Below, piece after piece: positions 19,701 through 64,000 of a stretch of 64,000 bases of DNA (the stretch's first letter is position 1; each line of letters opens with the position of its first letter). The notes under the pieces are model-generated. The model had not been told where the DNA came from. It was given only the letters and a program-made list of their open reading frames with translations, and searched no databases. Position numbers and translations under genes: made by a program. The DNA comes from Prorocentrum cordatum (lineage: Eukaryota; Sar; Dinophyceae; Prorocentrales; Prorocentraceae), in the NCBI GenBank assembly GCA_963575745.1, contig CAUYUJ010011447.1:494001-558000 (forward strand), given 5' to 3'.

Positions 19701-19750
19701 AACTGGAGGAGCTGTAGTGTAATTCGACGTCTAACTTGATATGTTACACC

Positions 19751-20230
19751 TCCCTGGGGATATCCGACATGCTATGTTAGAGCTCCCTGGGATATCTAAT
19801 ATGCTATGTAGGAGCTGCGTGGGAGCTCTAACATGGCATGTTAGAGCTCCCTGGGAGCTCTACATCCTCTGGCATGCCATGTTAGAGCTCCATGGGAGCT
19901 CTAACATGGTATGTTAGAGCTCCAATGGAGCTCTAACACCCTCTAACATGCCATGTTAGAGCTCCCTGTGAGCTCTAGCATCATCTAGCATGCCATGTTA
20001 GAGCTCCAGGTGAGCTCTAACATGGCATGTTAGAGCTCCAACGCAGCTCTAACATGGCATAGAGCTCCCTGTGAGCTCTAACATCATCTAGAATGCCATG
20101 TTAGAGCTCCAGGTGAGCTCTAACATGGCACGTTAGAGCTCCAAAGCAGCTCTAACATCCTTTAACCTGCCACGTTAGAGCCCAATGGGAGCTCTAACAT
20201 GGTATGTTCGAGCTCCATGGGAGCTCTTAT
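19751..20230. repeat. palindromic GAGCTC satellite
   Basis: Repeated inverted units of the form ATGTTAGAGCTCC, a 2-4 base centre, then GGAGCTCTAACAT. Adjacent palindromes are joined by GG(C/T) or by a short CCTCTGGCATGCC-type linker. More than ten half-units are present in ~480 bp, with decay at both ends. A poly-G run follows at 20237-20249. It lies 5' of the minus-strand ORF at 17775-19700. Confidence 0.9.
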
Positions 20231-20259
20231 CAGACAGGGGGGGGGGGGGGTACTACAGC

Positions 20260-20375
20260 TAGCCCAGATTTGGCTGGTCTGACCTGGCGCCCTTTGCCCT
20301 TGCCCTTGCGCGCGTCGTCGTTGCCCTTGCCCTTGGCGCCCTTGCCCTTGCCGCCATTGCCGACCATCTGCGCTG
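20260..20375 (-). CDS. possible Gly/Lys-rich short exon
   Basis: On the minus strand, after an acceptor-like CTGCAACAG, a Met-initiated frame reads MVGNGGKGKGAKGKG and ends soon after QVRPAKSG. Gly-Lys repeats of this type are common in RNA-binding tails, but the segment is short and low-complexity. It could be the last exon of an unrecognised gene or not coding at all. Confidence 0.25.
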
Positions 20376-20971: not shown

Positions 20972-23900
20972 CTATGGCACGGCCTTGGTGCCCGGGCACA
21001 GTGCTTCAACCGTCGCGTCGAAACGCAGAACCCAGTTCCTCGGGCTGTTGTAGAGCTGTTTGACGGCTCTGTCGACACCCGCTTCTTCTCCCGAGCGGCA
21101 CAGCACGCAAGTTCGCTGCACCAGGCGGGGATTGGCCTGCCTCTTGAAGAACTTGCAGAGCTTCCTGGGGCTCTTGTAATAGATCGCACACCCACTCGGC
21201 GTCTGGGCAAGCGCTCGCAAAACGTGGGGCAGTGTAGGCAGGTCTTCCGCGAGAGCCTCTGTTACAGCCACGTGGTAGCTCTTGCTCGAGTTCCGAAGCT
21301 TCTCCGTGTACTGGATGCCTTTTGGAGAATCCCCCCGTGCAAAGTCAGTCGGCGTTGTGAAAAAAAAAAAGCTCCCGTGAACGCTGCTACGATCTGGGCG
21401 GCGATGCAACTGTCGGTGTCAGCTGTTGGCGCCAAGACTACGCCCCCCTTCTCCCCCTGGGCCGTATGACGGGCAAGATAGTCCAGGAAGTCCACCGGGT
21501 CCTGAAACACCTTGAAACGCAAGCGCTGCGCCTTGTTGCGAGCGTCCAATCTACCATGCGAGCCAGCATGAGCCCAGCGGGGCGCGGGGGGGGGCAGCAA
21601 GCAAGCGTCGCGGCCCGCAGCTGGCCTGGCACTGCGCAGGACTTTCTTCTCTCGGGTACTCCTGGCCTTGGCGGCGGCCTTCGCCCCTCCAAGATTGCGC
21701 TCTCGGATCTTGGCCTCCCGCTTGGCGACGGCGGCGACGACTTTTGCAGCGGGCCCGACTGGATCTGCGCCGCTCGCCTGGGCCGCCTCCTGAGCCAGCG
21801 CAGCGAGATCGGGGGCGCCCTCCGCGAGAAGGCGGGCGCGCTTGCTCGGGGAAGCGGCCACCATGGCGTCGACGGCAGCTGCTCGCCTGCGCCCGAAGCC
21901 TACCTCTGTCCGACGTGCTGCCCCAGGCTCCCGCGTGCTTCCCTTGTCGCGCCTCTCGGCCCTCCTCAGCGGCACGATCTTCCCCTGCGCGACCTCGTGT
22001 AGCTTGAGCACATGCCTGTACCAACGACTGGCGGGAGAGCTGCTCTCGTCGTTGTCGTCCAGCCACGTGCGCAGCAACCTGCTGGAGGGCGCCTGGTCCA
22101 CGAGCGTGCACTCCTCGACGGACGCGTCGAGGAGCCGCGCCCTCTCGGGGCAATGCGCCTCCGAGAAACGGCGGAATCGCCTCTCCAAGTTGCCCGTGCT
22201 CGTTTTCCATACGCGGAAGAGCTCCACGAGGCGACGGCCGCTGGGGAGCCCGGGCCACTCCACCGCAGCGCGGCCCCAAGCCTGCCGCGCGGTGCCCCCG
22301 TCTCGATGATGCACCTCGGCACGGGGCAACATTTGCCGCAGCTGGGAGATTGCCTTCTGCTCGGGGAGGTCTGCCGCCTGGCAGATGCGCTTCAGACAGG
22401 CCTCGGCTTCTGTTGCATGCTCTGCTGTTGCAGACAGGGACAGGGGGGAAGGCAAGCGAAAGGCTGTAAAGGCGTGCAACCAAGAATGCTCTGGCCGATA
22501 TAGCTTCATGGTCTCCTTCAAATTGGCCGCGATCCCCTGCGCTCGTCGAAGAGCCGCGTGGACGGCTTCGCGGGCTCGGGGCCCCGTGCTCCAATCGCCG
22601 ATACCAACGGTCTGGACGCCAGTGCCGCACGCGAACCGCTTCGTGGCCTTCAGAAACTTGAGGGTGACGCCAGTAAACGTGTTGGGGATGGCCAGAATAT
22701 TCCCCTGGACGAACAATGCATCCAGCTTGGAGAGGAAAGCGGCGGCCCTGGATTGAACGCTGGCAGCGTCGAGGTTGCCCTTGTCTCCGGTGGCGACCCA
22801 GGAGTAGTGCTCCGCGCTCAAGTCGGCCAGCAACCCCCCCCAGGAGCAGGCGCGAACTGTTCTCGCCCCCGAGCCCTTCCAGAATATGTCGGGCGAGAAT
22901 GCGCCGATCTTTGTCCTTCCCCTGGGACTCCACTCCGAGCGCCTCGAAAATGACTTCCCAACGCCGGCTTTCCCGTGCTAAGGGCCTCGCCCGACTGTTG
23001 AAACGCTGGGGGGCCCAGCCGAAGTTTCTGACGAACGCAGCGCCGTCTTCCACCAGCTGCTGCTCCCCGAGTGTGTTGCGGAACACGGTGGAGGTAGTCA
23101 GGAACTTGGCCAGACTTGGCGGCTTCTTACCCGTTACCAGCAGCTCGTCCGTGGTCGTTATTTCGCTGTCTCCTTTCATCGAATTGGCCAGAACCTTCTG
23201 GGACGAGTGAGACTCGCCCCACGCGTGAAACGCCAGCCCAGGGAACGTAGCTGTTGCAGCCAGGGGCGCACTTAGATCCGCCCCATCGCTGCACCATGCC
23301 CGAGCCTCCTGTCGCACATGCTTGTGCAAGTCCCCGTCCAGCTCCCCGCCTGCCGTCCGGCACGCGCGACGGACGCACTCCTCCAGCATGGAAGCCTTGC
23401 CGTCGCAGCCCATGCCCCGCGGGGGCCCCCGCATCCCGATCACCCGATCCACGATCCAGGGCCCTCTGGGGCCCAGCTGTTCCAGCCAGCCTGCCTTGAG
23501 ACCGTAGCTTGGGAGGAAGTCCAAAGCCTTCGGGATCGACCACAGCGCGGTGCCAATTTCGACCTGGTACGTGCGGTCGAGGCCGTCCGCGGCCAAACGA
23601 AAAACAGCACCATGTTTGAGGATCCTCTGCGTGATGATCTTCTCGTGCTGAGCCATGGTGGTCACCAGCCTTCGGCGCTGCCGACTAGACTCCAAAACTT
23701 GGCGGTCGCCCCCAACGAACGCACCCCGCCACACGTCGAAACTGCTGAAGGAACTGGTTGTCTCCAACATTGCACGGGTGGCGACCACTGCGCGGCAACC
23801 AGGGCGCTGGTCGGCGTTGCGGACGACGGCGGGCGCAGGCGCCAAGGCTGTTGCAGCTGCTGCAGCTGATGCAGCCGTTGTGGGGAACACAGACACGGGG

Positions 23901-24718
23901 AGACCCTGGTGCGCACCTTCCGCTCGAATCCGCTCATTCCACGCCGCTTCTGCTGCCTGGTGCTCATCGCACTGTGCGTGGCGCGCAAAGTTCTCCTTGC
24001 GTTGGAAACTCGCGGATCCCTGGCTTATGGTGGAATAGCAGCGAGCGCCCTTGAACGCCGAGCAGAACAAGCAGACTGCAAATCTACCACCTACGCAGCC
24101 TATCCAAGTTTCAATCTTCAGTGTAACTGGATTCGTCGCAGACATCGAGGCGCTCCACTTCTCCTTGTTCTTCCAAAATTTGCAAGCGCCGCAGGTGGAG
24201 ACGTGCTTTGGGTAGTCGTGGGTGGCGACGTGCTCCTCCAGGGCCATGGACAACGAAGGCGGGAACTTCTCGACTGCTTTGCTCGGGGCGGCCTTCGCCT
24301 TCGCTCTTGCAGCCGCGGCTGCCTCGCTGCCGGAGCCGCTGTCCTCTTCGGGGCCGCTGTCGGAGCCGCTGTTGGAGCCGCTGTCCTCTTCGGAGCCCGC
24401 TGCGTCGGCAACTCCGTCGGCGCCGTCGGCGCCGGACCCTGCGTCAGCATCGGCGTCCGAGCTGTTGCAGCTGCCACGGCTTGGCGAAACTGCCCTCGAC
24501 GAGGCCGCCGAGGCCGCGCGGCTCGACGGGGCCGCTCTCGACGAGGCCGCACGGCTCGAAGAGGAAGCAGGGCTCGGGGAAGCATAGCTCGGGGAAATCA
24601 AGGGAGAGGACGAGGCCGCAGGGCTCGGGGAAATCAAAGGAGAGGACGAGGCTGGAGGGCTCGGGGAAACCGCCCCAGCGGACGACAACATTATTTTGAG
24701 CCAAGTCCTACGGACCAC
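20972..24718 (-). pseudogene. zinc-finger, transposase-like protein broken at two homopolymers
   Basis: A minus-strand gene of ~1,180 residues if read through. Start 24718 (MVRRTWLKIML), then Ser/Ala- and acid-rich low complexity to ~145. Next are Cys176/Cys179 and a C2H2-like finger with Cys216/Cys219 and His247/His253 in a segment containing VCLFCSAFKGARC and FARHAQCDEH, similar to BED/TTF-type fingers of hAT-like elements. A long body follows (HAWGESHSSQKVLANSMKGD; LLADLSAEHYSWVATGDKGN; NTFTGVTLKFLKATKRF). The frame jumps at C8 (22834-22841) and again at A11 (21360-21370). Beyond the second run, coding continues to 20972 with LPTLPHVLRALAQTPSG and RTCVLCRSG. Both breaks at homopolymers could be sequencing errors or decay. 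The transposase link is inference; no DDE triad is assigned. Confidence 0.55.
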
Positions 24719-24719
24719 A

Positions 24720-24950
24720 ATGGTGACGATGGTAATGGTGATGGCGATGCTGATGGTATGGATTGTGATGGTGATGATGATGATGATGATGGGTACGGTG
24801 ATGATGGTATGGTGAGGGCGGTTGTGATGGTGATGATGGTGATGATGGCGATTCTGGATGCGATGAGCACCACCATCATCACCATCACCATCGCCACCAC
24901 CATCAGCACTACGATTTGATAACCACCATCATTACAATCGTCGTCGGCAT
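24720..24950. repeat. GAT repeat that switches strand in the middle
   Basis: Imperfect (GGT/GAT)n from 24720 to about 24866 is followed by (CAC/ATC)n to 24930, so the two halves are rough reverse complements. It lies between the zinc-finger gene start and the 3' end of the retroelement. Confidence 0.8.
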
Positions 24951-38580: not shown

Positions 38581-39331
38581 ATCACATCTTGGGCGCCCCA
38601 AGGTCAGCTCGTCATCCCACCCTTTACTCGGGACCACATCGTAGGACGCCTGCACGCTTCGCGCGAGCTGACCGATGAGCCCCCCTGGTGTCCGATGTCG
38701 ACTGGACATGGTGCTTCGGCTTTATCGCGCTTGATTTGGTTTTTTCTGGTCTGCGATCTGAATGTTTCTCAAGGCCGCCACATACTATGTCATCCAACAG
38801 TCCACGGGGCACGATTCGGCTTGGCACTGCTCCAGCATAGCTCAAGGGGTGCGCGCGGCCTGGGACCAACGTCAGTTTGCAGAGTCACACGCCGCCCTAC
38901 GACGCGTGGGCACGGGATCGAAACGACGGCGGTCCGAGCGAGTCATACCAGCCTTGCTGGATCTGACAGGACAGGCAGTTGTATCTAAACAGCAGGTAGC
39001 ACGACGATGGCAGCAGCACTTTGCAGGATGGATATGGCAGCCACCTTGCCCGTCAAAGATATACCGATCTTTGCAGGATACCTTGGGCGTACATCGTATG
39101 TGCGTATGTCGTCTGGCCCTGTCTCTCTCACATACCTTCCCCCTCATGCTGATGTTCAATGGTCTTGCCGCCAAGCACGGAGTTGCTGGAGGCCTTTTGA
39201 AGGCCTCGTAGCTGAGTATTACTACCCAGTGCAGCTAACATTTGCACTGACCTTTGTAAGTCTGATACAATGGAAAGGAGGGTTCAATGTTGGACCTCAT
39301 CAAATCTGGACAAGCCTCGCAGGCCTAGAGG

Positions 39332-39969
39332 TTGACGCCAACAAGGATCGGCGGTGTGCCTCCACCGAGGGGAGACGATCCCGATCTCGGCGACGGTGGT
39401 AATATTCTGGCTTCCAAGGTGACCGAAATAGTACCACCAACACCGAAATCTAGGATCGTCTTCCCCACGTGGAGGCAGCCCCCTGTGCTGGTGTTGGTGC
39501 CAATGTCTAAGCCTCCAAAAGCCGATCCTACGCAGCGCGCGAGTTCCAGGTCCATCTTGCTATCGTCACAGATCGGCAATGCAGCCCGATGGCGCCCTAA
39601 GTGCCGACTTCTATCATTCCTGGCCCCTAAGGCGGGCGAAACTCAGATCGGAAGACTCCCAGGCAAGGGCGCTACGCGTGCTTTTCTTGTGTACCGAGTG
39701 GCCCACTCGCTGGCCAAGCTCAGGAAACTGTCGTTTGGGGCGCTACTAGTGGACGCCATGCGGCCTTCTACATGGCCACTGGGGAGCTCGTGGCGCGTGC
39801 TCAGCGCGAGACCGACCTGGGCGACCTTATACTAACTGCGATAGTGCGAGCAGCTGGCCTGCCACCAGCGGCCGTGTACCCAGACGCCTGCCGACTACGA
39901 CAGCGACCTCCAGCCCTCTCCAGATCCGAAGTGGGCCCTCACATGGTGGCCCAGGTTGAACAGCGCTAG
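39332..39969 (+). pseudogene. LINE reverse transcriptase, N-terminal half
   Basis: Two plus-strand frames joined by a one-base shift near 39757. The first ends KLRKLSFGALLVDA; the second runs AFYMATGELVARAQRETDLG and ends in TAG at 39967-39969. Together they cover RT motifs 1-2 and A. The Asp of motif A is present. Confidence 0.6.
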
Positions 39970-45930: not shown

Positions 45931-47190
45931 CTGCGAAGAGGAAGAGGAGGGGGGGAAGGGGAAGGAGTCGGCGGCGTCTAACAAATAAGAACAACCCCCA
46001 CTCAGGACATGGGGAAACATCCATGACACGCTGCCGTGGGGGAGCCATCAGTGCGCTACTGCTGAGGAAGCACCGGGCGCGCGGGCAAAAGCGCAGTAGC
46101 GACAAGCCGACGGGCTTCCAACGGCGGCGTGCCATTGTCGGGCTGAACTGCCCCCCCAAGATGGCATGTGAATGCGGCTTCCTCTTCAAATCTGAAAGAT
46201 GCAGATCGCGCGCTCCATTTCACGACGCAGCGCCGGGGGGGCATTGAGCCCGCCTTTGCGCGGGCGCGAGCGCGAAGAGTCTGAGATGATCCTGAGAGGC
46301 TCCGGAGAAGCTCCCAAGGGGCTCCTCCGATGCTTCTGAGAGGCTGCTGAGGACGGCGCTGATCGCACCAAGCGTAGCCGGATCCCACCTCCGAATCTTG
46401 CCTGCGGCGGCCGCGCTCCTGCTCCGAATCTTGCCCATCGACGTCCCGAATGGGGCTCCGAATCGCGCCGCGTAAGGGCTCCGAATCTTGCCCGTCGACG
46501 CCTCGGATGGTGCTCCGCACTGTTAAAAACAAGACCGAAGATAATTCACCCAACTTTCGCTAATGATTCGGCCGATGTGAAACTGCCATCTTTCGGGGCA
46601 GCTTTCGGTGGCCTCGTCCGGTGGCATCTCGGGGGGCAAGCCCAGCGCGCGCGGGTGGCCTGTGTACTTGGGGCCCCGCGGACCCCGCGTCCAGAGCCCT
46701 CGACTCAAGGGCGCAGATCTCCTTTGATTCTGGGGCCAGGGCCCACGGACTCCGCGGCGGGGCCCAGGCGAGTCGGGGCCCGACCATGTGCTGCGGCATC
46801 GCGAAGAGCGCCCAGCAACGCCAAAGAAACCGCGCGCAAGAACGACATCGAGCAAACAAATAAGCAACCCGGAACATAGCAAAATTCACAGACGTTTCGC
46901 TTGGGGTCCTGTTCAGCCCGATGACTTATTGCACTGAGGGCATCGCGGCGCGACGCGCGCTGCCATTGCTTGGATTTGCTGGACTGAGACTGCCACGCGG
47001 AGCATAGTCGGATGATGTCCCTGCGCGAGCTGCGCCGCCGCTGCAGCGCCGCGTTCGAGGGAGATCAGTCGATGGAGACAACTGCAAAAATACACACCGC
47101 CGTGACACAATATTCTGCGGTTTTATGATATGTTGGAATCTCCTATCCCTCTGAAGATTCCTAACATTGACATGCGTCCTCCGCGATCCC

Positions 47191-47338
47191 GCGGAGTAAT
47201 TCGTCTACCTCTAATTAATAACATTGCGATCTCAAAACAGGATCGGAAATTACTCCGCCCATTCCTATATGAAAAATGGGACGGGATGCATGTCCACGCG
47301 GAGTAATTTCTACTCCGCCCACTCCGTTTACTCCGCCA
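47191..47338. repeat. GCGGAGTAATT inverted-repeat region, copy A
   Basis: GCGGAGTAATT at 47191 and ~47299, its complement AATTACTCCGC at ~47250, and further TACTCCGCC at ~47312 and 47330. It lies ~50-200 bases before the plus-strand ORFs of the repeat unit and is repeated at 49003-49150. It could be regulatory or the remnant of a small inverted-repeat element. Confidence 0.6.
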
Positions 47339-47531
47339 GTCTTGGGTCATGTTGAATGAAGACCGCATAGTACTTTTGTCACGGCAATGGGGAAAAATGC
47401 GTTGCACTTCGTATTTCCTCGGCTGCATCCACCTCAGGCTAGACCATGTATGCTCGCGCCGACAGGGATGAAGCGACGGCGTTCGTCGTCGTCGCCGTGC
47501 ACCGTTTCGAGGGAGGCGCCATTCGCCATCG

Positions 47532-47945
47532 TTGCTGTTGCCGCAGGGTGCAAGCGCGCGTGCGTCCTCTTCCCGCGCTACCTTTCCAGAAAGTACGGAA
47601 GCTGGCCATCGCGGCGACTGCCGCGACGCAGGTCGCAGGCGCGGTTCGCGGACGCGGGCCGCGTCTTACGGGTCGCTTGTCGCAGGTCGCAGGCGCGAGT
47701 CGCTAGCGCGGGTCGCGGGCCTTTGTCGTGGTCGCAGGTCGTGGCTCCGCAGGAAGCTCAGGTTGATGGGCTTGGACGACCTGCGGAAGAAACGCCGCCC
47801 ACTGGGGAAAACTGCGCACACCGCAGGGGCGAAGCAGGTTCTGAAGACCGAGGAGGCCCAGACGGTGGCCAAGAACGTCGCAGGGCGATTCCGCAAGGCT
47901 TGCAAGCAGGTGGTGGACCGCGGCGGGGCTGCGGCCGACAATTGA
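47532..47945 (+). CDS. possible Lys/Arg-rich protein, copy A
   Basis: The last ~70 residues read as natural protein: LRRKLRLMGLDDLRKKRRP, GAKQVLKTEEAQTVAKNVAG, RFRKACKQVVDRGGAAADN, stop. The upstream part is Arg-rich with a repeated GTCGCAGGCGCG motif (47630-47740) and is probably intron or untranslated; acceptor-like GGTCGCAG precedes the natural part. No domain recognised. A second copy is at 49344-49757. Confidence 0.35.
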   Translation: MLLPQGASARASSSRATFPESTEAGHRGDCRDAGRRRGSRTRAASYGSLVAGRRRESLARVAGLCRGRRSWLRRKLRLMGLDDLRKKRRPLGKTAHTAGAKQVLKTEEAQTVAKNVAGRFRKACKQVVDRGGAAADN

Positions 47946-49002
47946 CTTATCGGGCTGAACTGCCCCCCCAAGATGGCATGTGAATGCGGCTTCCTCTTCA
48001 AATCTGAAAGATGCAAATCGCGCGCTCCATTTCACGACGCAGCGCCGGGGGGGCATTGAGCCCGCCTTTGCGCGGGCGCGAGCGCGAAGAGTCTGAGATG
48101 ATCCTGAGAGGCTCCGGAGAAGCTCCCAAGGGGCTCCTCCGATGCTTCTGAGAGGCTGCTGAGGACGGCGCTGATCGCACCTCATGTAGCCGAATCCCAC
48201 CTCCGAATCTTGCCTGCGGCGGCCGCGCTCCTGCTCCGAATCTTGCCCATCGACGTCCCGAATGGGGCTCCGAATCGCGCCGCGTAAGGGCTCCGAATCT
48301 TGCCCGTCGACGCCTCGGACGGTGCTCCGCACTGTTAAAAACAAGACCGAAGATAATTCACCCAACTTTCGCTAATGATTCGGCCGATGTGAAACTGCCA
48401 TCTTTCGGGGCAGCTTTCGGCGGCCTCGTCCGGTGGCATCTCGGGGGGCAAGCCCAGCGCGCGCGGGTGGCCTGTGTACTTGGGGCCCCGCGGACCCCGC
48501 GTCCAGAGCCCTCGACTCAAGGGCGCAGATCTCCTTTGATTCTGGGGCCAGGGCCCACGGACTCCGCGGCGGGGCCCAGGCGAGTCGGGGCCCGACCACG
48601 TGCTGCGGCATCGCGAAGTGCGCCCAGCAACGCAAAAGAAACCGCGCGCAAGAACGACATCGAGCAAACAAATAAGCAACCCGGAACATAGCAAAATTCA
48701 CAGACGTTTCGCTTGGGGTCCTGTTCAGCCCGATGACTTATTGCACTGAGGGCATCGCGGCGCGACGCGCGCTGCCATTGCTTGGATTTGCTGGGCTGAG
48801 ACTGCCACGCGGAGCATAGTCGGATGATGTCCCTGCGCGAGCTGCGCCGCCGCTGCAGCGCCGCGTTCGAGGGAGATCAGTCGATGGAGACAACTGCAAA
48901 AATACACACCGCCGTGACACAAGATTCTGCGGTTTTATGATATGTTGGAATCTCCTATCCCTCTGAAGATTCCTAACATTGACATGCGTCCTCCGCGATC
49001 CC

Positions 49003-49150
49003 GCGGAGTAATTCGTCTACCTCTAACTAGTAACATTGCGATCTCAAAACAGGATCGGAAATTACTCCGCCCATTCCTATATGAAAAATGGAACGGGATG
49101 CATGTCCACGCGGAGTAATTTCTACTCCGCCCACTCCGTTTACTCCGCCA
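49003..49150. repeat. GCGGAGTAATT inverted-repeat region, copy B
   Basis: Counterpart of 47191-47338 in the second 1812-bp unit; the GCGGAGTAATT motifs are all conserved. Confidence 0.6.
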
Positions 49151-49343
49151 GTATGAGGTCATGTTGAATGAAGACCGCAAAGTACTTTTGTCGCGGCAAT
49201 GGGGAAAAATGCGTTGCACTTCGTTTTTCCTCGGCTGCATCCGCCTCAGGCTAAACAGTGTATGCTCGCGCCGACAGGGATGAAGCGATGGCGTTCGTCG
49301 TCGTCGCCGTGCACCGTTTCGAGGGGGGCGCCATTCGCCATCG

Positions 49344-49757
49344 TTGCTGTTGCCGCAGGGTGCAAGCGCGCGTGCATCCTCTTCCCGCGCTACCTTTCCA
49401 GAAAGTACGGAAGCTGGCCATCGTGGCGACTGCCGCGACGCAGGTCGCAGGCGCGGTTCGCGGACGCGGGCCGCGTCTTACGGGTCGCTTGTCGCAGGTC
49501 GCAGGCGCGATTCGCTAGCGCGGGTCGCGGGCCTTTGTCGTGGTCGCAGGTCGTGGTTCCGCAGGAAGCTCAGGTTGATGGGCTTGGACGACCTGCGGAA
49601 GAAACGCCGCCCACTGGGGAAAACTGCGCACACCGCAGGGGTGAAGCAGGTTCTGAAGACCGAGGAGGCCCAGACGGTGGCCAAAAACGTCGCAGGGCGA
49701 TTCCGCAAGGCTTGCAAGCAGGTGGTGGACCGCGGCGGGGCTGCGGCCGACAATTGA
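49344..49757 (+). CDS. possible Lys/Arg-rich protein, copy B
   Basis: Paralogue of 47532-47945 in the second repeat unit. In the natural-looking C-terminal part the visible changes are Leu to Phe (SWLRR to SWFRR), Ala to Val (GAKQ to GVKQ) and one synonymous Lys codon. The stop is at the same place (AAADN). Evidence for coding is modest. Confidence 0.35.
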   Translation: MLLPQGASARASSSRATFPESTEAGHRGDCRDAGRRRGSRTRAASYGSLVAGRRRDSLARVAGLCRGRRSWFRRKLRLMGLDDLRKKRRPLGKTAHTAGVKQVLKTEEAQTVAKNVAGRFRKACKQVVDRGGAAADN

Positions 49758-50775
49758 CTTGTCGGGCTGAACTGCCCCCCCAAGATGGCATGTGAATGCG
49801 GCTTCCTCTTCAAATCTGAAAGACGCAGATCGCACGCTCCATTTCGCGACGCAGCGCCGGGGGGGCATTGAGCCCGCCTTTGCGCGGGCGCGAGCGCGAA
49901 GAGTCTGAGATGATCCTGAGAGGCTCCGGAGAAGCTCCCAAGGGGCTCCTCCGATGCTTCTGAGAGGCACCTCATGTAGCCGAATCCAACCTCCGAATCT
50001 TGCCTGCGGCGGCCGCGCTCCTGCTCCGAATCTTGCCCATCGACGTCCCGAATGGGGCTCCGAATCGCGCCGCGTAAGGGCTCCGAATCTTGCCCGTCGA
50101 CGCCTCGGATGGTGCTCCGCACTGTTTTAAAAAAAAGACCTAAGATGATCCACCCAACTTTCGCTAATGATTCGGCCGATGTGAAACTGCCATCTTTCGG
50201 GGCAGCTTTCGGTGGCCTCGTCCGGTGGCATCTCGGGGGGCAAATCCAGCGCGCGCGGGTGGCCTGTGTACTTGGGGCCCCGCGGACCCCGCGTCCAGAG
50301 CCCTCGACTCAAGGGCGCAGATCTCCTTTGATTCTGGGGCCAGGGCCCACGGACTCCGCGGCGGGGCCCAGGCGAGTCGGGGCCCGACCATGTGCTGCGG
50401 CATCGCGAAGAGCGTCCAGCAACGCCAAAGAAACCGCGCGCAAGAACGACATCGAGCAAACAAATAAGCAACCCGGAACATAGCAAAATTCACAAGGACG
50501 TTTCGCTTGGGGTCCTGTTCAGCCCGAGCCATTGGCACCCGCTTCTCCCTCCCGAGCCCAAGGCCCGTGCCTCCTGTCTCCGTCGCAGCGCGGCAAAGGC
50601 AATCCGCACGCTCGCGCGAATAGCCCTGGCGAGGCGTACCAAGTGTCCGGCGGCCCGAGAGGGAGAGGAAAGAGGAGGGCGGCCGCAGGCGGGCGAGGGA
50701 GGAGGGCACCCACCGCAGGAAGAACTTCGGCAAGAGTGGCCGGAGCGGCCAGGCCCTAAGGCCCGTGTCTCCGTG

Positions 50776-51045
50776 TCTAGAGGCCTCCTGGATGGGGTCC
50801 GACTAGATGTGGTACATCGGCGATACGTCGGCGATGCATCGCCGATACATCGGCGATGAATCAGCGATGCATCGGCGATACATCGGCGATGCACCGGCGA
50901 TGCATCAGCGACGTCGGCGATGCATCCGCGGCGTCGGCGTGAGTGAAGCAAATCGGGCTGCACATCGAGCCGCATCGGCGATGCATCGGCGATGCGACGC
51001 GATCCTCCGACCCCAGCAACTCCGACCCCATCTGGGAGGTCTAGA
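50776..51045. mobile_element. introner-like element, copy 1
   Basis: 270 bp bounded by inverted repeats TCTAGAGGCCTCCTGGATGG (left) and, read in reverse from the right, TCTAGACCTCCCAGATGGGG. The interior has a tandem ~12-mer CATCGGCGATGC/ACATCGGCGATA (50814-50935). It shares the block CACATCGAGCCGCATCGGCG with the intron at 52864-53090, plus the following ~40 bases. Flanks share CAC next to both ends. Whether this copy is also spliced is unknown. Confidence 0.7.
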
Positions 51046-52226
51046 GTGTCTCCAGGTCGCCGCTGCTCTCTCCACGCCTTAACCCCCCGTGGGGGGGCCG
51101 CTCCCGGGGCCCACGGGGCCGTCGGGAGGCTGCCCCTCGCAGGGGGGCACGCGGCGGGCCCCCGGGGACGGGACGTCCGGAGGCCTGGGAACGAGTCTGG
51201 CACGAGCCGTCACGCACGGGCACTGCACAACAGAGGATATGACGACCGCTATCCCAAGCTTCGTGGGGGGGCTTCGAATGGACCAAAAATTGTGGGGCCC
51301 AACCCTGGGATATACGATGGGCCATCCTCGATAGGGGTGCGTCCAAATAGCCCCCTGGTGCTATGTGGTCCTCATCGTACTTAAGGACCACATCCCAGCA
51401 ATTGTTTCGAGCACCCAGGCAATGTCTACCCGACACGCTAGCGAAATGTCGAACGAATATCATATCCCAGGGCCCGACACATGCAAACCCTCAAATTTCT
51501 GTACTTGCTTTGCGCTCGAAATTCTTGCTGGTGATGAAGGCTAATCTAGGCTGGGACATCATAACCCTGGGGGTGTATCCCAAGGTTTCCCCCTTTTTTC
51601 TGGGCTGCGGAACTTTTCGGGCGGACTTCAGGGAGTTGGAGGGAAGAATCGCCTGCGACCGGGGCGGACATCCTGCAACAAAACACGGAAATGCTGTGAC
51701 GTCTATCAGGAGCACATTCATAAACGCACACGTGCACCACGTGGACCCGCCGTCCACCGTCCACCGATGAAAGGGGGATGGGGGGTAAAGATGAATGCAG
51801 AATCGCATCATGCTGCGTACAAGACCGTGGCGTGCGCCGCCTGCGTCTTCAGCGCGTGCGACCCAAAGCCCCATAATCTTCTGGCATCTCGCAGACAGCT
51901 TCGCACCCACGATACAGGAAAGAAGTAGGAGACGCCATTTCAACGCGGGATTGGCCCCATCGAGGCATTCCCCCACACCCACCTCGACATCCACGCGCTC
52001 ACGACGCCATGTGTAATCACGATGAACCTCCGAACACCAAAGCATCGCAACCGATAGGGCGAGCAAGCAGGCAAGCATGCAGCACGTAGAATGGATGGAG
52101 GCAGTCAGCTACCAACTTTACTGTGCACGACGTGATCATGTCGCTTTGACACTGAATCTAGATGCAACCATCCTCCACATCTCACCATTGGCGGCGCGCA
52201 CCGGGGGGTAAAGTGAGGGGGGGGAA
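51046..52226. other. no supported gene
   Basis: A 195-residue minus-strand ORF (51491-52078) has a signal-like start (MLACLLALSVAMLW) but no recognisable domain and an irregular composition; I do not call it. The rest is non-repetitive. Confidence 0.35.
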
Positions 52227-52684: not shown

Positions 52685-55552
52685 TCATGCCAAATGGAAA
52701 TGCTTCTGCTCCACCGCCTGAGACAACTTTCTCAGTAGCGTCTGCGCTGAGCCATACCTGACGGGCAAATCCAGCTGCAAGGTGCAGGTGTGCGCTACTG
52801 GCAGGCTCTCCACGGAGCTGGTCAGCCTGATGGTCATTTTCCTATGCGGGGGAGGGAAGCCGCCTGTAGAAGCCTCCTCGATGGGTTCCGAGTAGATGAG
52901 GTCGGCGGATCGCGCTGCATCGCAGGTGAATCGGCGATACATCGTCAATGCATCGGCGACGTCGAGGTACATCGGCGCAGACGGCGTGGAGAAACTGGGT
53001 CTCCACATCGAGCCGCATCGGCGAGGCATCGGCGATGCGATGCGATCCTCCGATCCCATCTACTGGGGCCACATCTGGGAAGCCTAGAGCCTGGTGGCAG
53101 CCGCTGGAATCCGGTGATCCACTCCAGGAGGGCGGCCCGCCCCTCGGCGCTCAGGGCAGCGGCGTGCGCCCAGAACCAGTCCAACGTCTCCGACCCTTCC
53201 TTTGCAAGAGTCTCGTCGTCGATTTCGACTTCAGTCAGCTCCATCCATTGCTCGACGGGGACCTCTGGATCGCCAGCGATCCTCTGCTGGAGTGGACTAG
53301 GCTCGAAAGCGAGGCGCCGCCGCTTGGCCTGTGGGCTCTCTGGCGGCGCGCCACCTTCTTGACCTCCTGGCGCAGCCGCGCCTGCAGGTCGCCCCCGACC
53401 GGTGGGTAAATGTAGCGCTGATGCAGATGATTGGCATGAGCGAGACGGGTCGTGAGGAAAACGGGTCCTGGACCCCCGGGCTTTCCCCAGGGGCCCCAGT
53501 CCTCAGGGGCCAGCTCTTCATCCCGAGTCGTTTGTGGAAGGCCCCAGGGCGCCCCGAGGCCCTCGCAGGCCTAAAATGGCGAAACATGTCGGGACTCCGT
53601 TCCCTTACGACACGCTTCCTCCATGGCGAAGATGAGCATGAAGACGACGGCGGGGCGCCCAGGCCGGAGGGCGGCAGTGTGGCTGCCCACGGCGTGGCGG
53701 CCTGTTCTCCGAGCTCGCCCAGAGAGCCAAGGCCATCAGGCGCCGACCCCGGCGCGAAGGCGTGCGGGCCGGCGGCGGACGCGCGGGCAGCGCGCCGTAG
53801 CAGCGGCGCGGCCGCGGCGCTCGAGCTGGGCGGCGGCGCCGAGGCCCACGGCGCAGCGGCGGGCGCGCCAGCGTCCCCAGAGGGCCCCAGGTCGCCATGC
53901 GCCGCCGCTGGCGCGGGGGCGGCGGGGCCAGCGGTGGCCGCGCCTACGGGGAGCGGCGCGCGCGGCGGGGTGGAAGCAGAGGCCTGGCCGGCGTCCGCCG
54001 TCCGCAGCCGCTTCCGCAGCCGTGCCTCCTCCTCGTCCTCGACGCACTGCCGCAGGCGCTTGCTGGAGCGCGCCTCCCTGGCGAGGCGCGGCACCTTTAC
54101 ATGCGGGATGGAGTGGAGGCCCCGCCATAACGCGAGGGTCTCCTCGCGCACGTCCAACAGCAGCTCGTCCAGCGCGCGCCTGGCCATGTGCTCGGGCAAA
54201 TTCTCGAGCGTCACCGGGGCGTCGTCCACGGTCACGGCCCCCGCTGCCTCCACGAGGCCCGCCCTGTCCGACGCCGGCAGGTCCTCGGACAGGCAGCGGC
54301 TCCAGTACGCGTGCTCCTCCGGGCTCGCCCAGATCAGCCACTCCCGCGAGAAGCCGAGGAGTACCTGCTCGGCGGCCGCCTTCAGCCGCCTCACCGCTCG
54401 CCCCCTAGCCGCGAGCCGCAGCTGTAGGCGCTCCCAGCCAGCCGAGCGCCTGCCCGAAGGCGGGGCGCCGCCGGGCGGCCCTGGAGCGGCCGCGCCTCCG
54501 AGCCCCGCGTGCACCGACTCCAGCGCCTGCGGCAGGCGCCGGTGTGCGAGCAGGTGCGCGAGTGGCGCGCAGAGGTCGACGCCCAAGGGCTGCCCGGCAC
54601 GCAGTGCCAGGCCCACGGCCTTGCCGACCGCTTCCAGCCTCGCAACGCTGGCGCCCTTCTTCAACCTGGCATACGCCCTGCCGTTCACGGTCGCCGTGTC
54701 CACGAGGCCGTTCGCAGGGTCGAAGGCCTCGACGATGAATCTGTTCAGCCAGTCTCTCCCCATACCGCCGGCGTCGATCCCGTCCTCCGCAAGCTCGGGC
54801 GACCTCCTGCGCGAAGCCCTCCCCGAATCGACAAAGGCTACGGCCGGGATGCCGCGCCGCAGCTCCGCCGGCGGCAGGGATGACAGGGCCTCGACGGAGG
54901 AATCCAGGAGGCGCGCGCGGTCGATCTTCATCGGCTGCACGTAGGCGCCGACATCCGAGAGCACAGACTCGCTGAGCTTCGTCCACCACAGCGCACCTGG
55001 CCCGAGCATCAGCAGAATGGTGCAGAGGTCGAACCGCAGGTTACTGGAGAGCGAGCACAGGGCGAGGGACAGCGCGCACGCGCAGCCCGCCGCGGCGCGG
55101 AGACCCGCGCGCTGCCAGCCACCGTCCCGCTGGGCCGCCTCCACGAGCAGCCTCGCTGGCAGCGTGCAACCCCGCAGCGCGTGCCTGGCGCACGCGATCC
55201 GCAGCAGGGCGCCGGCCAGGTGACTTCCCGCGGGCACGCCGAGCGCGTCGGCGGCGAGCACCAGCGCGATGCCGATGACGACGAGCCCGACGAGGACGAT
55301 GCTCGCCAGCAGCTCTGGAACCTCAGACCACGGGAACGGCCGCCTGACCAAAATCCTCCGGAGGAGGGCCCAGTCGGCCCAGAGGCTCAGCGCGCCAGCG
55401 TTGACGAAGGCGACCACCCACCAGAGCGAGTCTGGGGCGAGCGACAGCAGCGACGCGACGGCCTCGAGCCAAGGGCAGAGAATCCAGGCCGCCGCTGGCG
55501 ACCACGCCCCCCATCGAGTTGCCCCCCGCACGGCGCAGCGAAGCGACTCCAC
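52685..55552 (-). CDS. membrane-anchored HECT-type E3 ubiquitin ligase
   Basis: HECT ligases accept ubiquitin on a Cys and pass it to substrate. Start 55552 (MESLRCAVRGATRW). Hydrophobic segments at ~43-59, 81-101, 150-169 and 177-190 suggest a membrane anchor. The HECT N-lobe begins near 235: PAVAFVDSG, EDGIDAGGMGRDWLNRF (256-272), FDPANGLV, then VTLENLPEHMARRALDELLL. An Ala/Pro-rich stretch (54000-53330) follows and probably contains intron. The C-lobe is on exon 53328-53091 (GDPEVPVEQW; TLDWFWAHAAALSAEGRAAL; GFQRLPP) and exon 52863-52685 (GGFPPPHRK; LPVAHTCTLQLDLP), with catalytic Cys codon 52784-52786. The intron 53090-52864 begins GC and ends AG; joining restores GGF exactly. The stop TGA is at 52685-52687. 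The upstream splice sites of exon 53328-53091 are not settled. Confidence 0.8.
52864..53090 (-). mobile_element. introner-like element forming a GC-AG intron in the HECT gene
   Basis: A 227-bp intron read on the minus strand: exon ...CCAG|GCTCTAGGCTTCCC ... GGCTTCTACAG|GCGGC. Both boundaries carry CAGGC, a likely 5-bp target duplication that supplies the splice sites. Ends are imperfect inverted repeats (TCTAGGCTTCCCAGATG vs TAGAAGCCTCCTCGATG). The interior shares a long block with the element at 50776-51045. Confidence 0.75.
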
Positions 55553-56299
55553 AACTCTGCCTGGGAGGACGGAGCAAACGAACGCGCATGATCACAAAAA
55601 GCCTGGTACGCCCGCGGGCAGCTTGTATCCGCCCGCGCCGCCCCCCCTCCCTTTTTCCCTATAGGGTCCCAATCCGAGCCCACTCGGCGTCCGAGCCTGT
55701 TCGGCCGCCGAGCGGGCTCACGATCGAGCCCACTCGGCGGCCCAGCGGGCTCAACGCCCACCACGGCATAGGAACTGAGTCCCGTCGGCTGCCCGTTCGG
55801 CGGCCCGACGGGCCCAGATGCCGAGTGGGCTCAGGAGGGTGAGGTAGGCCCTGCCCTTCCTCCACCGCTCCGCACACCCGGGCCTTCTGCGGGTCTCCAG
55901 AAGTCTGCAGGGAGCCCAGTGAGGCAAGCCCTGCCCCTCCTTTACCCTGCAGCCCGCGAGGTGCGCCCACAGGGCGGCGCTCACGTGCGGGGAGGAGGCC
56001 CGGCGCCGGCGGAGAGCGTCCGCGGGCGCCAACGGTCCTGATTGCGCGCTTGCTCCGGCCTCCCGTCTGCTGCCACTCTGCGCCATGGGCACGGCCTCGC
56101 CGAGCTCAATGCCGAGGCCGTGCAGGACCAGCGCCGTCAAGCGCGGGCACTCCAGGAGGCCGAGCAGCAGCATGTCTCCCCTGGGCCCTCTCGCCGAACG
56201 CCAGACCTTGACTCGGGAACATCCGTCCATTCTCCCTCGTCTTCCTCGCCGTGCTCCCCCTTCTCCTCACCACTCTGCCGCATCAACCAGCTGCACAGA
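55553..56299. other. upstream of HECT gene, repeat-rich
   Basis: No gene supported. Bases 55670-55840 carry repeated GAGCCCACTCGGCGGCC and its complement-like GGCCGCCGAGCGGGCTC, i.e. short inverted repeats close to the HECT start. Confidence 0.45.
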
Positions 56300-56785: not shown

Positions 56786-57115
56786 TAGAAAACAAGGGAG
56801 ACGAGGCGTCGGCGAGGGAAGCCAGAGACGAGCAGAGGGAAGCGTGAGACGCTGAGAGGGAGGAAAGAGGAGGCTTATCTCCAAAGCGAGGGCCCAAGGG
56901 TAAGCAGGGTTGGGAACGCACTCCCCTTCTCCAGAGACAACAACTCATCCTGACCCTCCTCCGCCTCTGCCTTCTGCTTCCTGCCCCCCCCCCCTTATCA
57001 CCCAGAACCATTATGCGCATTATTTGTTCCAGCTCCAACATCATCCGCCATTCACCTAAAGTTTTGTTCAACGACTAGTAGACTAGTACCACGCCGCCAA
57101 CGACTACGATTACCA

Positions 57116-57993
<878 letters not shown>

Positions 57994-60900
57994 GGTAGCG
58001 CCGTGCCCGTCCGGGCCCCACGCCGTGCCCGTCCGGGCCCCGCGCCGTACGCCGTGCCCGTCCGGGCCCCGCGCCCCGCGCCGTGCCCGCCCAGGTCCCA
58101 CGCCCCACGCCGTGCCCGTCCGGGTTCGCGCTTGCGCGCCTCAGGAATCCCTGAAGTGTATAAGCGCCTAGGAATCCTGAGGGAATCCTAAGGGAATCCT
58201 GAAATGCTAGCGAACCCGAAGGAACCCAAAGGAAACCTAGCGAATCCGAAGGAATCCGAAAGAATCCTAAGGAATCCTCAAGATTCCGACCGAATCCTCA
58301 GCGAATCCTACTGGAATCCTACAGAATCCTTTCGCAGACCGCGCGCCGTTCCCGTCCGGGTTCGCGCTTGCGCGCCTTAGGAATCCCTGAAGTGCATAAG
58401 CGCCTAGGAATCCTGAGGGGATCCTAAGGGAATCCTGACATGCTAGCGAATCCGAAGGGAATCCTAAGGAAACCTAGCGAATCCGAAGGAATCCTAAGGA
58501 ATCCTCAGGAAGCCTACCGAATCCTCAGCGAATCCCAGAATGGAATCCTAGAGAATCCTTGCGCAGACCGCACGCCGTTCCCGTCCGGGTTCGCGTTTGC
58601 GCGCCTCAGGAACCCCTGAAGTGTATATGCGCCTAGGAATCCTGAAGGAATCCGAAAGGAATCCTGAAGGAATGCTAGCGAATCCGAAGGGAATCCTAAG
58701 GAAACCTAGCGAACCCGAAGCAATCCGAAGGAATCCTCAGGAATCCCACCGAATCCTCAGCGAATCCGAATGGAATCCTAAAGAATCCTCGCGCAGACCG
58801 CACGCCGTGCCCGTCCGGGTTCGCGCTCGCGCGCCTCAGGAATCCCTGAAGTGTATAAGCGTCTAGGAATCCTGAAGGAATCCGAAGGGAATCATGTAGG
58901 AATGCTAACGAATCCGAATGGAATCCTAAGGAAACGTAGCGAATCCGAAGGAATCCGAAGGAATCCGGAGGAATCCTCAAGCTTCCGACCGGATCCTCAG
59001 CGAATCCTAATGGAATCCTAAGGAATCCGTACGCAGACCGCACGCCGTTCCCGTCGGGGTTTGCGCTTGCGCGCCTCAGGAATCCCTGAAGTGTCTAAGC
59101 GCCCTGAAGGGAATCCTGAAGGAATGCTAGCGAATCCGAAGGGAATCCTAAGGAAACCTAGCGAATCCTAAGGAATCCACAGAATCCTCAGCGAATCCGA
59201 ATGGAATCTTGCAGAATCCTTGCGCAGACCGCACGCCGTTCCCGTCCGGTCTCGCGCTTGCGCGCCTCAGGGATCCCTGAAGTGTATAAGGCGCCTAGGA
59301 ATCCTGACGGGATCCTGAAAGAATGCTAGCGAGTCCGAAGGGATCCGAAGGGACCTAGCGAATCCGAAGGAATCCTAAGGAATCCTCCGTAATCCCACCG
59401 AATCCTCAGCGAATCCTAATGGAATCCTAAGGAAGCCTTGCGCAGACCGCGCGCCGTTCCCGTCCGGGTTCGCGCTTGCGCGCCTCAAGAATCCCTGAAG
59501 TGTATAAGCGCCTAGGAATCCTAACGGGATCCTAAGGGAATCCTGAAATGCTAGCGAATCCGAAGGGAATCCTAAGGAAACCTAGCGAATCCGAAGGAAT
59601 CCGAAGGAATCCCCAGGATTCCATCCGAATCCTCAGCGAATCCGAATGGAATCCTAACGAATCCTTGCGCAGACCGCACGCCGTGCCCGCCCGGGTTCGC
59701 GCTTTGCGCGCCTCAGGAAACCCTGAAGTGCATGAGCGCCTGAGAATCCTTAAGGAATCCCAAGGAAATCCTGAAGGAATGCTAGCGAATCCGAAGGGAA
59801 TCCTAAGGAAACCTAGCGAACCCGAAGCAATCCGAAGGAATCCTCAGGAATCCCACCGAATCCTCAGCGAATCCGAATGGAATCCTAAGGAATCCTTGCG
59901 CAGACCGCACGCCGTTCCCGTCCGGGTTCGAGCTTGCGCGCCTCAGGAATCCCTGAAGTGCATAAGCGTCTAGGAATCCTGAAGGAATCCCAAGGGGATC
60001 CTGCGGGAGTGCTAGCGGATCCGAAGGGAATCCTAAGGAAACCTAGCGAATCCTTAGGAATCCCATGGAATCCACAGGAATCCCACCGAATCCTCAGCGA
60101 CTCCTAATGAAATCCTAAAAAATCCTTGCGCAGACCGCACGCCGCCCCCGTCCGGGTTCGCGCTTGCGCGCCCCAGGAATCCCTGAAGTGCAGTAGCGCC
60201 CAGGAGCCTAGGAATCCTGAAGGGATCCTAAGGGAATCCTGAAGGAATGCTAGCGAATCCAAAGGGAATCCTAAGAAATGCTAGCAAATCCGAAGGAATC
60301 CGAAGGAATCCGCAAGAATCCCACCGAATCCCCAGCGAATCCGAATGGAATCCTAAGGAATCCTTGCGCAGACCGCACGCCGTTCCCGTCCGGGTTCGAG
60401 CTTGCGCGCCTCAGGAACCCCTGAAGTGTATATGCGCCTAGGAATCCGGAGGGAATCCGAAGGGAATCCTGAAAGATTGCTAGCGAATCCAAAGGGAATC
60501 CTAAGGGAACCTAGCGATTCCGAAGGAATCCGAAGGAATCCTACCGAATCCTCAGCGAATCCGAATGGAATCCGAAGCCGCACGCCGTTCCCGTCCGGTC
60601 TCGCGCTCGCGCGCCTCAGGAATCCCTGAAGTGCATAAGCGCCTAAGAATCCTGAAGGAAGCCTAAGCAAATCCTGAAATGCTAGCGAATCCGAAGGGAA
60701 TCCTAAGGAAACCTAGCAAACCCGAAAGAATCCGAAGGAATCCTAAGGAATCCCACCGAATCCTTAGCGAGTCCTAATGGAATCCTAAAGAATCCTTGCG
60801 CAGACCGCACGCCGTTCCCGCCCGGGTTCGCGCTTGCGCGCCTCGGGAATCCCTGAAGTGTATAAGCGCTTAGGAGCCTAGGTATCCTGAGGCAATCCTA

Positions 60901-63900
60901 AGGGAATCCTGAAGGAATGCCAGCGAATCCGAAGGGAATCCTAAGAAATGCTAGCGCGTCAGAAGGAATCCTAAGGAATTTTCAGGAATCCTACCGACTC
61001 CTCAGCGCACCTAAATGGAATCCCAAGGAATCCTTGCGCAGACCGCGCGCCGTTCCCGTCCGGGTTCGCGCTCGCGCGCCCCAGGAATCCCTGAAGTGTA
61101 TAAGCGCTTAGGAATCCTAAGGGAATCCAAAAGGAAACCTAAAGGAATGGTCGCGAATCCGAAGGGAATCCGAAGGAAACCTAGCGAATTCTAAGGAATC
61201 CGCAGGAATCCCACCGAATCCTCAGCGAATCCTAATGGAATCCTAAAGAATCCTCGTGCAGACCGCGCGCCGCCCCCGTCCGGTTTCGCGCTTGCGCGCC
61301 TCAGGAATCCCTGAAGTGCATAGGCGCTTAGGAATCCTGAAGGGATCCGAAGGGAATGCTAGCGAGTCCGAAGGGAATCCTAAGGAAACCTAGCGAATCC
61401 CAAGGAATCCTAAGGAAACCACAGGAAGCCTACCGAATCCTCAGCGAATCCTAATGGAATCCTAAAGAATCCTTACGCAGACCGCACGCCGTTCCCGCCC
61501 GGGTTCGCGCTTGCGCGCCTCAGGAATCCCTGAAGTGTATAAGCGCCTAGGAATCCGGAGGGAATCCGAAGGGAATCTTGAAATGCTAGCGAATCCGAAG
61601 GGAGTCCTAAGGAAACCTAGCGAATCCGAAGGAATCCTAGGAAATCCTCCGGATCCCGACCGAATCCCCAGCGAATCCTAATGGCATCCTAACGAATCCT
61701 TGCGCAGACCGCGCGCCGTTCCCGTCCGGGTTCGCGCTTGCGCGCCTCAGGAATCCCTGAAGAAGTGCATGAGCGCCTAGGAATCCTGAGGGAATCCAAA
61801 GGGAATCCTGAAGGAATGCTAGCGAATCCAAAGGGAATCCGAAAGAAACCTAGCAAATCCGAAAGAATCCTCAGGAAGCCCACCGAATCCTCAGCGAATC
61901 CGAATGGAATCCTAAGGAATCCTTGCGCAGACCGCACGCCGTTCCCGTCCGGGTTCGCGCTCGCGCGCCTCCGGAATCCCTGAAGTGCATAAGCGCTGAG
62001 GAATCCTGCAGGAATCCTAAAAAGGAATCCTGAAGGAATGCTAGCGAATCCGGAGGGAATCCTGAAGAAACCTTGCGAATCCTAAGGAATCCTAAGGAAT
62101 CCTCAGGAAACCTACCGAATCCTAAGCGAATCCGAATGGAATCCTAGAGAATCCTTTCGCAGACCGCACGCCGTTCCCGTCCGGGTTCGCGCTTGCGCGC
62201 CTCAGGAATCCCTGAAGTGTAGTAGCGCCTAGGAGCCTGGGAATCCTGGGGGGATCCTAAGGGAATCCTGAGGGAATGCTAGCGAATCCAAAGGGAATCC
62301 TGAGAAATGCTAGCGAATCCAAAGGAAACCGATGGAATCCTCAGGAAGCCCACCGAATCCTCAGCGAATCCGAATGGAATCCCAAGGAATCCTTGCGCAG
62401 ACCGCACTCCGTTCCCGTCCGGGTTCGCGCTTGCGCGCCTCAGGAACCCCTGAAATGCACAAGCGCCTAGAAATCTTAATGGAATCCTGAGGGCATCCTG
62501 AAGGAATGCGAACGAATCCGAAGGAATCCTCAGGATTCCGACCGAATCCTCAGCGAATCCGAATGGAATCCTAAAGAATCCTCGCGCAGACCGCACGCCG
62601 TTCCCGTCCGGGTTCGCGCTCGCGCGCCTCAGGAATCCCTGAAGTGCATAAGCGCCTAAGAATCCTGAAGGAATCCTAAGGGAATCTTGAAATGCTAGCG
62701 AATCCAAAGGGGATCCGAAGGGAATCCAAAGGAAACTTAACGAATCCGAAGGAATCCGAAGGAATCCTCAAGATTCCTACCGAATCCTGAGCGAATCCTA
62801 ATGGAATCCTAAGGAATCCTTGCGCAGACCGCGCGCCGTTCCCGTCCGGGTTCGCGCTTGCGCGCCTTAGGAATCCCTGGGGTGTATAAGCGCCTGGGAA
62901 CCGTGAAGGAATCCGAAGGGAATCCTGAGGGAACGCTAGCGAATCCGAAGGGAATCGTAAGAAATGCTAGCGAATCCCAAGGAATCCTAAGGAATCCTTA
63001 AGAATCCTACCGAATCCCTAGCTGATCCGAATGGGGCCCTAAGGAATCCTTGCGCAGACCGCGCGCCGTTCCCGTCCGGGTTCGCGCTCGCGCGCCTCCG
63101 GAATCCCTGAAGTGCATCGGCGCTTAAGAATCCTGAAGGAATCCGAAAGGAATCCGGTAGGAATGCTAGCAAATCCGAAATGGAATCCTAAGGGGACCTA
63201 GCGAATCCGAAGGAATCCTAAGGAACCCTACCGAATTCAACCGAATCCTCACCGAATCCAAATTGAATCCTAAAGAATCCTCGCGCAGACCGCACGCCGT
63301 TCCCGTCCGGTTTCGCGCTTGCGCGCCTCAGGAATCCCTGAAGTGTATAAGCGCCTAGGAATACATAAAGGAATCAGAGGGGAATCCTAAAGGAATGCCA
63401 GCGAATCGGAAGGGAATCCTAAGGAAACCTAGCGAATCCGAAGGGAATCCTCAGGAACCCCACCGAATCCTTAGCGAATCCGAATGGAATCCTAAGGAAT
63501 CCTTGCGCAGACCGCGCGCCGTTCCCGTCCGGGTTCGCGCTAGCGCGCCTCAGGAATCCCTGAAATGTATAAAAGCTTAGGAATCCGGAGGGAATCCTAA
63601 GGGAATCATGAAGAAATGCTAGCGAATCCGAAGGGAATCCTAAGGAAACCTAGCGAATCCTAAGGAATCCTAAGGAACCCCCAGGATTCCTACCAAATCC
63701 TCAGCGCATCCGAATGGAATCCTAAAGAATCCTCGCGCAGACCGCACGCCGTTCCCGACCGGCTTCGCGCTTGCGCGCCTCAGAAATCCCTGAAGTGTAT
63801 AAGCGCCTAGGAATCCTGAAGGAATCAGAAGGGAATCCTGAAGGACTGCCAGCGAATCCGAAGGGAATCCTAAAGAAACCTAGCGAACCCGAAGGAATCC

Positions 63901-64000
63901 GAAGGAATCCTAAGGAATCCTACCGAATCCTCAGCGAATCCGAATGAAAACCCAAGGAATCCTTGCGCACGCCGCGCGCCGTTCCCGCCCGGGTTCGCGC
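57994..64000. repeat. ~230-bp satellite array, continues past the window
   Basis: CGCAGACC (or a close variant) recurs at 58333, 58562, 58792, 59032, 59222, 59441, 59668, 59899, 60129, 60367, ~60572, 60799, 61037, 61257, 61476, 61703, 61926, 62158, 62396, 62585, 62823, 63053, 63284, 63506, 63736 and ~63966. Spacing is 189-240, mostly 219-240. Each monomer has a conserved ~60-bp head (GTTCCCGTCCGGGTTCGCGC, then TGCGCGCCTCAGGAATCCCT) and a body of variable 10-mers like GGAATCCTAA. The array opens (58003-58125) with five short copies of CCGTGCCCGTCCGGGCCC. Confidence 0.95.

Follow-up and report, generated by a model that had tools for sequence, protein, structure and literature searches.

The C-lobe of a HECT-ligase gene in Prorocentrum cordatum is interrupted by a 227-bp intron, and we propose that this intron is a copy of a MITE-type transposon that inserted in the codons for RLPPGGF and duplicated its 5-bp target, CAGGC, a reading to which we give a probability of about 0.9. 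The gene lies on the minus strand of the window, by which we mean the whole stretch of 64,000 nucleotides of P. cordatum DNA that was analysed (Table 1). The proposal draws directly on a family of related copies, on their ends and 5-bp duplications, on the restoration of the coding sequence at the protein level, on the recent movement of the family, and on a second copy that has been removed in a deposited gene model. It offers a worked example of the path from transposon to intron, in which the target duplication alone would give both splice sites and the end bases of the element would set which targets are usable.

Table 1. Positions of the HECT-ligase gene parts, the intron, elements A and B and their flanking duplicates in the window.
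Feature	Positions	Strand	Remarks
Upstream exon, same HECT gene	53984..55558	-	Identity with P0007, a deposited P. cordatum protein; downstream border approximate
Exon preceding the intron, HECT C-lobe start	53091..53328	-	Upstream intron: 188 placements possible
HECT-gene intron	52864..53090	-	227 bp, GC...AG, phase 1 in Gly codon; RLPPGGF restored exactly
Last exon, HECT C-lobe end with VAHTC and stop codon	52685..52863	-
Element A, non-coding transposon copy with inverted repeats, 222 bp	52867..53088	-	End-to-end homology to 39 genome copies and B
Left target duplicate CAGGC, 5 bp	53089..53093	-	Putative donor CAG|GC
Right target duplicate CAGGC, 5 bp	52862..52866	-	Putative acceptor CAG|GC
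Left inverted-repeat arm of A	53019..53083	-	47/65 positions pair with right arm
Right inverted-repeat arm of A	52872..52936	-	47/65 positions pair with left arm
Second copy, element B (268 bp), not within a recognised exon	50778..51045	-	Homology to A
Target duplicate GTGTC left of B	50773..50777	+	CCGTGTCT present twice there
Target duplicate GTGTC right of B	51046..51050	+
CATCGGCGATG-type 11-bp repeats inside B, 10.9 copies	50813..50930	.

On the minus strand the C-lobe reads LLEWITGFQRLPPG, is interrupted by the 227 bp, and resumes with GFPPPHRKMTI...VAHTC...HLA and a stop codon. Joining the exons at 53090->52864 yields RLPP|GGF with no residue gained or lost, and both parts of the C-lobe keep conserved residues, including VAHTC. 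The Pfam HECT domain (PF00632) scores 88.6 bits on the spliced sequence vs. 36.3 bits on the read-through, and the unspliced frame runs into a stop after 47 foreign residues, with the VAHTC stretch lost. Solved HECT sequences align over the junction, and five of six homologues (P0001, P0002, P0008, P0009, and P0010) show no break there (RLPxGGFP), although some of them may be spliced transcripts, so that the five support the mature protein rather than the absence of an intron from their genes. P0011, the sixth homologue, stops right at RLPL, perhaps because it is truncated or because another species has an intron in this position. Both the coordinates and the HECT score agree with a sequence-only reading of this DNA, which had described a C-lobe split inside RLPP|GGF by 227 bp starting with GC and ending with AG. 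The same reading had placed CAGGC at both boundaries, where it is indeed found (53093-53089 and 52866-52862, minus strand). Alone, this repeat is weak evidence, because the splice consensus of P. cordatum favors GC donors and AGG acceptors, which account for 51.4% and 79.7%, respectively, in the published models (PMC10666404). As CAGG at the borders is favored by the splice consensus, it is therefore the varied duplications of copies not capable of forming introns that carry the argument.

The intron consists of element A (222 bp) plus one CAGGC duplicate, with no sequence left over. The ends of A are imperfect inverted repeats, as had been suggested, with 65-bp arms that pair at 47 of 65 positions. 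Their pairing score was reached by none of 1000 dinucleotide shuffles for the outer 50 nt and 70 nt, and, in the case of the outer 30 nt, by eight. Within A, no perfect inverted run exceeds 8 nt; the run of this length starts at element base 25 and lies partly past 30 bases. The RNA of A is predicted to fold into a hairpin (z −5.8) that would bring the splice sites near each other. A block of more than 50 bases had also been reported as common to a second element 2 kb away; it proved to be 104 nt at 84% identity, and the second element is B, which is homologous to its very ends. When the outer 30, 50, and 70 nt of B were tested, 0, 1, and 0 shuffles out of 1000 matched the end pairing, and the predicted RNA hairpin of B has a z of −6.9. 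The CATCGGCGATG-type 11-bp repeats of B occur in shorter runs in A (52930-52959 and 53015-53035). The duplication at B is by itself modest proof, because GTGTC occurs again 8 bp upstream. Divergence from the family consensus is 10.8% for B and 13.5% for A. The latter value makes A the second most diverged of 41 copies, at odds with its original description as a copy with its features intact.

One search with A as the query in the 4.13-Gb P. cordatum assembly (21,875 contigs) gave 5522 first-look candidates. The best 40 of these, A included, were scored and all 40 matched; being the ones most like A, they form a non-random sample. The 39 others are 79–84% identical to A, and the placed copies are 214–234 bp long. 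The expectation that genome copies would have common ends and flanking duplications was borne out. In the family consensus the inverted-repeat ends pair at 37 of the 40 outer positions. The 5-bp target duplication is perfect in 17 of the 39 copies, correct in at least four of five positions in 26, and in three or fewer in 13, compared with 0.18% perfect and 2.2% at least four of five in a shifted control (3900 comparisons). The duplicated 5-mers vary (AGGTC, GCAAA, TTCTG, GGGGA, CGCAT, AAAGA, and others).

The family has moved recently, because three copies (L038, L044, and L055) share the same 234 bp at unrelated sites, with different flanks and duplications. A fourth (L047) is 99.6% identical to these three and has its own flanks and duplication. 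The median divergence of the 39 copies from the consensus is 7.2%, and their flanks gave three cross-matches in 300 bp, none of them among the identical copies. No preference for exons was seen in a weak test, in which the open frames spanning the 39 sites without their insertions had a median of 258 vs. 249 at random sites. Six-frame translation of the consensus returned short repetitive frames only. Consensus and duplicate together measure 228 bp, which is divisible by three, and some frames have no stop, so that a full-length insertion could be tolerated in frame even unspliced.

At least one other copy appears to be an intron. L018, with the duplicate AGGTC, lies in a thioredoxin-like gene and is absent from the deposited P. 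cordatum protein P0004, which reads GDELQ|VAVEM over it; the exons on either side are present in the same contig, and the paralogues P0005 and P0006 carry no inserted residues at this position. This assignment rests on the deposited gene model and the paralogues, and the P0004 record, from a contig of 14,134 bases vs. 12,500 here, may represent another copy or assembly version. The putative intron again consists of the element and one 5-bp duplicate, with its borders at the element ends. Another copy, L061 (duplicate CAGGT), splits a tetratricopeptide repeat, and TPR_10 scores 41.3 bits spliced vs. 28.9 bits unspliced. L061 is only a probable intron because the insertion stays in frame and open if unspliced, which would also hold for L018. 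Introns of similar sequence are thus found in unrelated genes, HECT (A) and thioredoxin-like (L018), with the tetratricopeptide gene as a probable third, and intron status was judged by protein models for these copies only.

CAGGY stands directly before the left end at 17 places in the genome, whereas a control with the reversed pattern gave none. The right duplicate is perfect in 10 of the 17, including A, correct in four of five positions in two, and in three or fewer in five. Among the 12 places with at least four of five, Pfam identifies A and L061 as lying in coding sequence; a single frame was scanned at each of L060 and L073, with no match, and the remaining eight were inspected visually only. 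CAGGY accounts for 0.22% of the 5-mers in the flanks and 0.29% of those in the window, and it precedes the exact left end in none of the 14 such copies among the 39.

An alternative is that an older intron already existed at RLPP|GGF and was later invaded by a transposon that replaced its contents. In its favor, P0011 stops exactly there, as if it had been read into an intron. However, the HECT intron corresponds exactly to the element and one 5-bp duplicate, and L018 has the same exact fit with a different duplicate, so that we consider an older intron improbable. We infer instead that the HECT intron was gained in the P. cordatum lineage.

The upstream part of the HECT gene is 100% identical to P0007, a P. 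cordatum protein, over the aligned 78% of the query. P0007 does not include the 227-bp intron because it leaves the frame ahead of the C-lobe, and it has no Pfam HECT match. If the insertion were unspliced, either the HECT gene would be broken, or the deposited model would be right to end before the C-lobe. The missing C-lobe of P0007 would fit either case. However, both parts of the C-lobe are conserved, including VAHTC, and their join is exact to the residue, while the tail of P0007 is in a different frame from the conserved AKRRRL...EWITGF stretch. An unspliced insertion is therefore very unlikely. We read the missing C-lobe as an error of the gene model, and the intron would be spliced in the cell. 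As it stands, the public P. cordatum annotation gives the HECT gene without its catalytic part (P0007 vs. window positions 52685-53328). The case thus shows a gene with an element-derived intron whose public model has lost the catalytic domain.

MITEs are short elements without a transposase gene that have terminal inverted repeats and target duplications of fixed length, and they occur at many unrelated sites. The family described here is short and non-coding, has terminal inverted repeats and 5-bp duplications, and is found at many unrelated sites; a transposase encoded elsewhere presumably moved it. We prefer the label MITE because the majority of sampled duplications are unsuited to serve as splice sites. 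The family is better called MITE-like, with some copies that became introns, and to call all of it "introners" would overstate the case. The sequence-only reading, which had proposed a family of transposon-derived introners, was thus right about the many copies and common ends, and L018 adds a second intron, but the family as a whole is rather a MITE. That the copies are introns spread as RNA by reverse splicing, and not DNA transposons, is extremely unlikely: the intron borders of A and L018 do coincide with the element, but B and most sampled copies have duplications without AG|G (GTGTC, TTCTG, CAATC) that are unusable as splice sites, and inverted ends with 5-bp duplications fit DNA transposition.

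Under the transposon-insertion reading, a non-coding inverted-repeat DNA transposon would have inserted in the RLPPGGF codons, and its 5-bp target CAGGC would have been duplicated. CAG|GC would then act as the donor in the left duplicate and as the acceptor in the right, and splicing would take out the element together with one duplicate, bringing back the original codons. Element A itself would bring no complete splice site at the HECT locus, and its hairpin may help the splice sites to meet. More generally, T...A ends combined with a 5-bp duplicate that holds AGG suitably, or begins with GG, would create a self-restoring GT/GC/GA-AG intron in either orientation. A (CAGGC) and L018 (AGGTC) obey this rule, and B does not. 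A self-restoring splice in the sense orientation is permitted by only one of the 17 perfect duplications, that of L018; an antisense GA-AG splice is permitted at L045, which has a perfect duplication, and at L039.

The 5-mers that permit a self-restoring splice in either orientation make up 11.3% of those in the window and 15.8% of those in the HECT exons. We suggest tentatively, and at somewhat less than even odds, that the family has been active recently and perhaps still is, that roughly 1/6 to 1/9 of random insertions would yield a self-restoring intron, and that intron birth is ongoing in P. cordatum. If this is true, intron birth could be followed by asking which strains have a given intron and which lack it. 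The identity of copies at different sites implies that the process can be recent, so that strains of this cultured species, for which a genome exists, could be compared for intron gain.

Introners have been reported in P. cordatum and other dinoflagellates (PMC10666404, PMC9860276, PMC7789003, PMC11453091, PMC11782384). As far as the passages of these papers go, elements of this kind are already known from P. cordatum, and the family of the HECT intron is a further member; the A/B family itself does not appear in those passages. For P. cordatum CCMP1329, with an assembly of 4.15 Gb and a mean G+C of 59.7%, introners are described as non-autonomous DNA transposons (PMC10666404). They agree with our case in species, in inverted repeats at both ends, and in short direct repeats at the borders. 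Their pattern is an inverted repeat of 8–20 nt plus a direct repeat of 3–5 nt within 30 bases of the intron ends (PMC10666404), and the direct-repeat part is present at the HECT intron as CAGGC. There, however, the evidence as given in the text is enrichment of the pattern in annotated introns, with no sequence of a family described, whereas the HECT intron is absent from the deposited model.

The introners of Symbiodinium microadriaticum and Florenciella likewise have inverted ends, target duplications, and splice sites derived from the target (PMC9860276). By the account in that paper's passages, Symbiodinium elements produce 4-bp duplications and carry a 3′ splice site, whereas at the HECT element the duplication is 5 bp and both splice sites would be supplied by the duplicate, the situation reported in Florenciella (PMC9860276). 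Amoebophrya introners have inverted repeats capable of forming hairpins as well, there with direct repeats of 3–5 nt over the borders (PMC7789003). In contrast to the A/B family, with its conserved ends and GC/GT-AG borders, they are portrayed as mostly having borders that are non-canonical and as lacking an inverted repeat specific to a family (PMC7789003). Recent introner families in dinoflagellate genomes were also reported by Roy et al. (2023), as cited in PMC11453091, for five other genomes.

Three DNA patterns for relatives of A and B gave no match in viral contigs, and none of 55 stretches in viral contigs that fit a pattern for HECT homologues was confirmed. One DNA pattern pointed to nine places in genome contigs, which were rejected since their longest similarity to A or B was 20–34 bp, the level of chance. 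Rfam had no match in the window at the gathering threshold. A Pfam scan of 10 long frames of the window returned one weak zinc-finger match only: a frame of 1125 residues (21554-24928, minus strand) resembles the C17orf113 zinc finger below the curated cut-off. Among 73 further frames scanned, two match C-5 cytosine DNA methylase; a frame at ~4736 on the minus strand, which may be one of the two, has a GPPCPSFS motif.

In 57 kb, a scan for inverted ends with 5-bp duplications picked out 10 places, as against none in six simulated controls. Two of them, at 1828-1999 and 39317-39518, are element-like, with inverted ends and the 5-bp duplications AGGAT and AAGCC, and most other places among the 10 are repeat arrays. 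At 19689-20281, a palindromic array of TAGAGCTC units (593 bp) is built like the introner element, with inverted ends flanked by an ACCTG duplication, and perhaps represents another transposon family. A satellite array with a unit of ~230 bp occupies 58106-64000, reaching the end of the window, and adjoins an ACT-type array at 57103-57993. Finally, 46135-48733 and 47947-50527 form a tandem duplication of ~2.6 kb with 97% identity.
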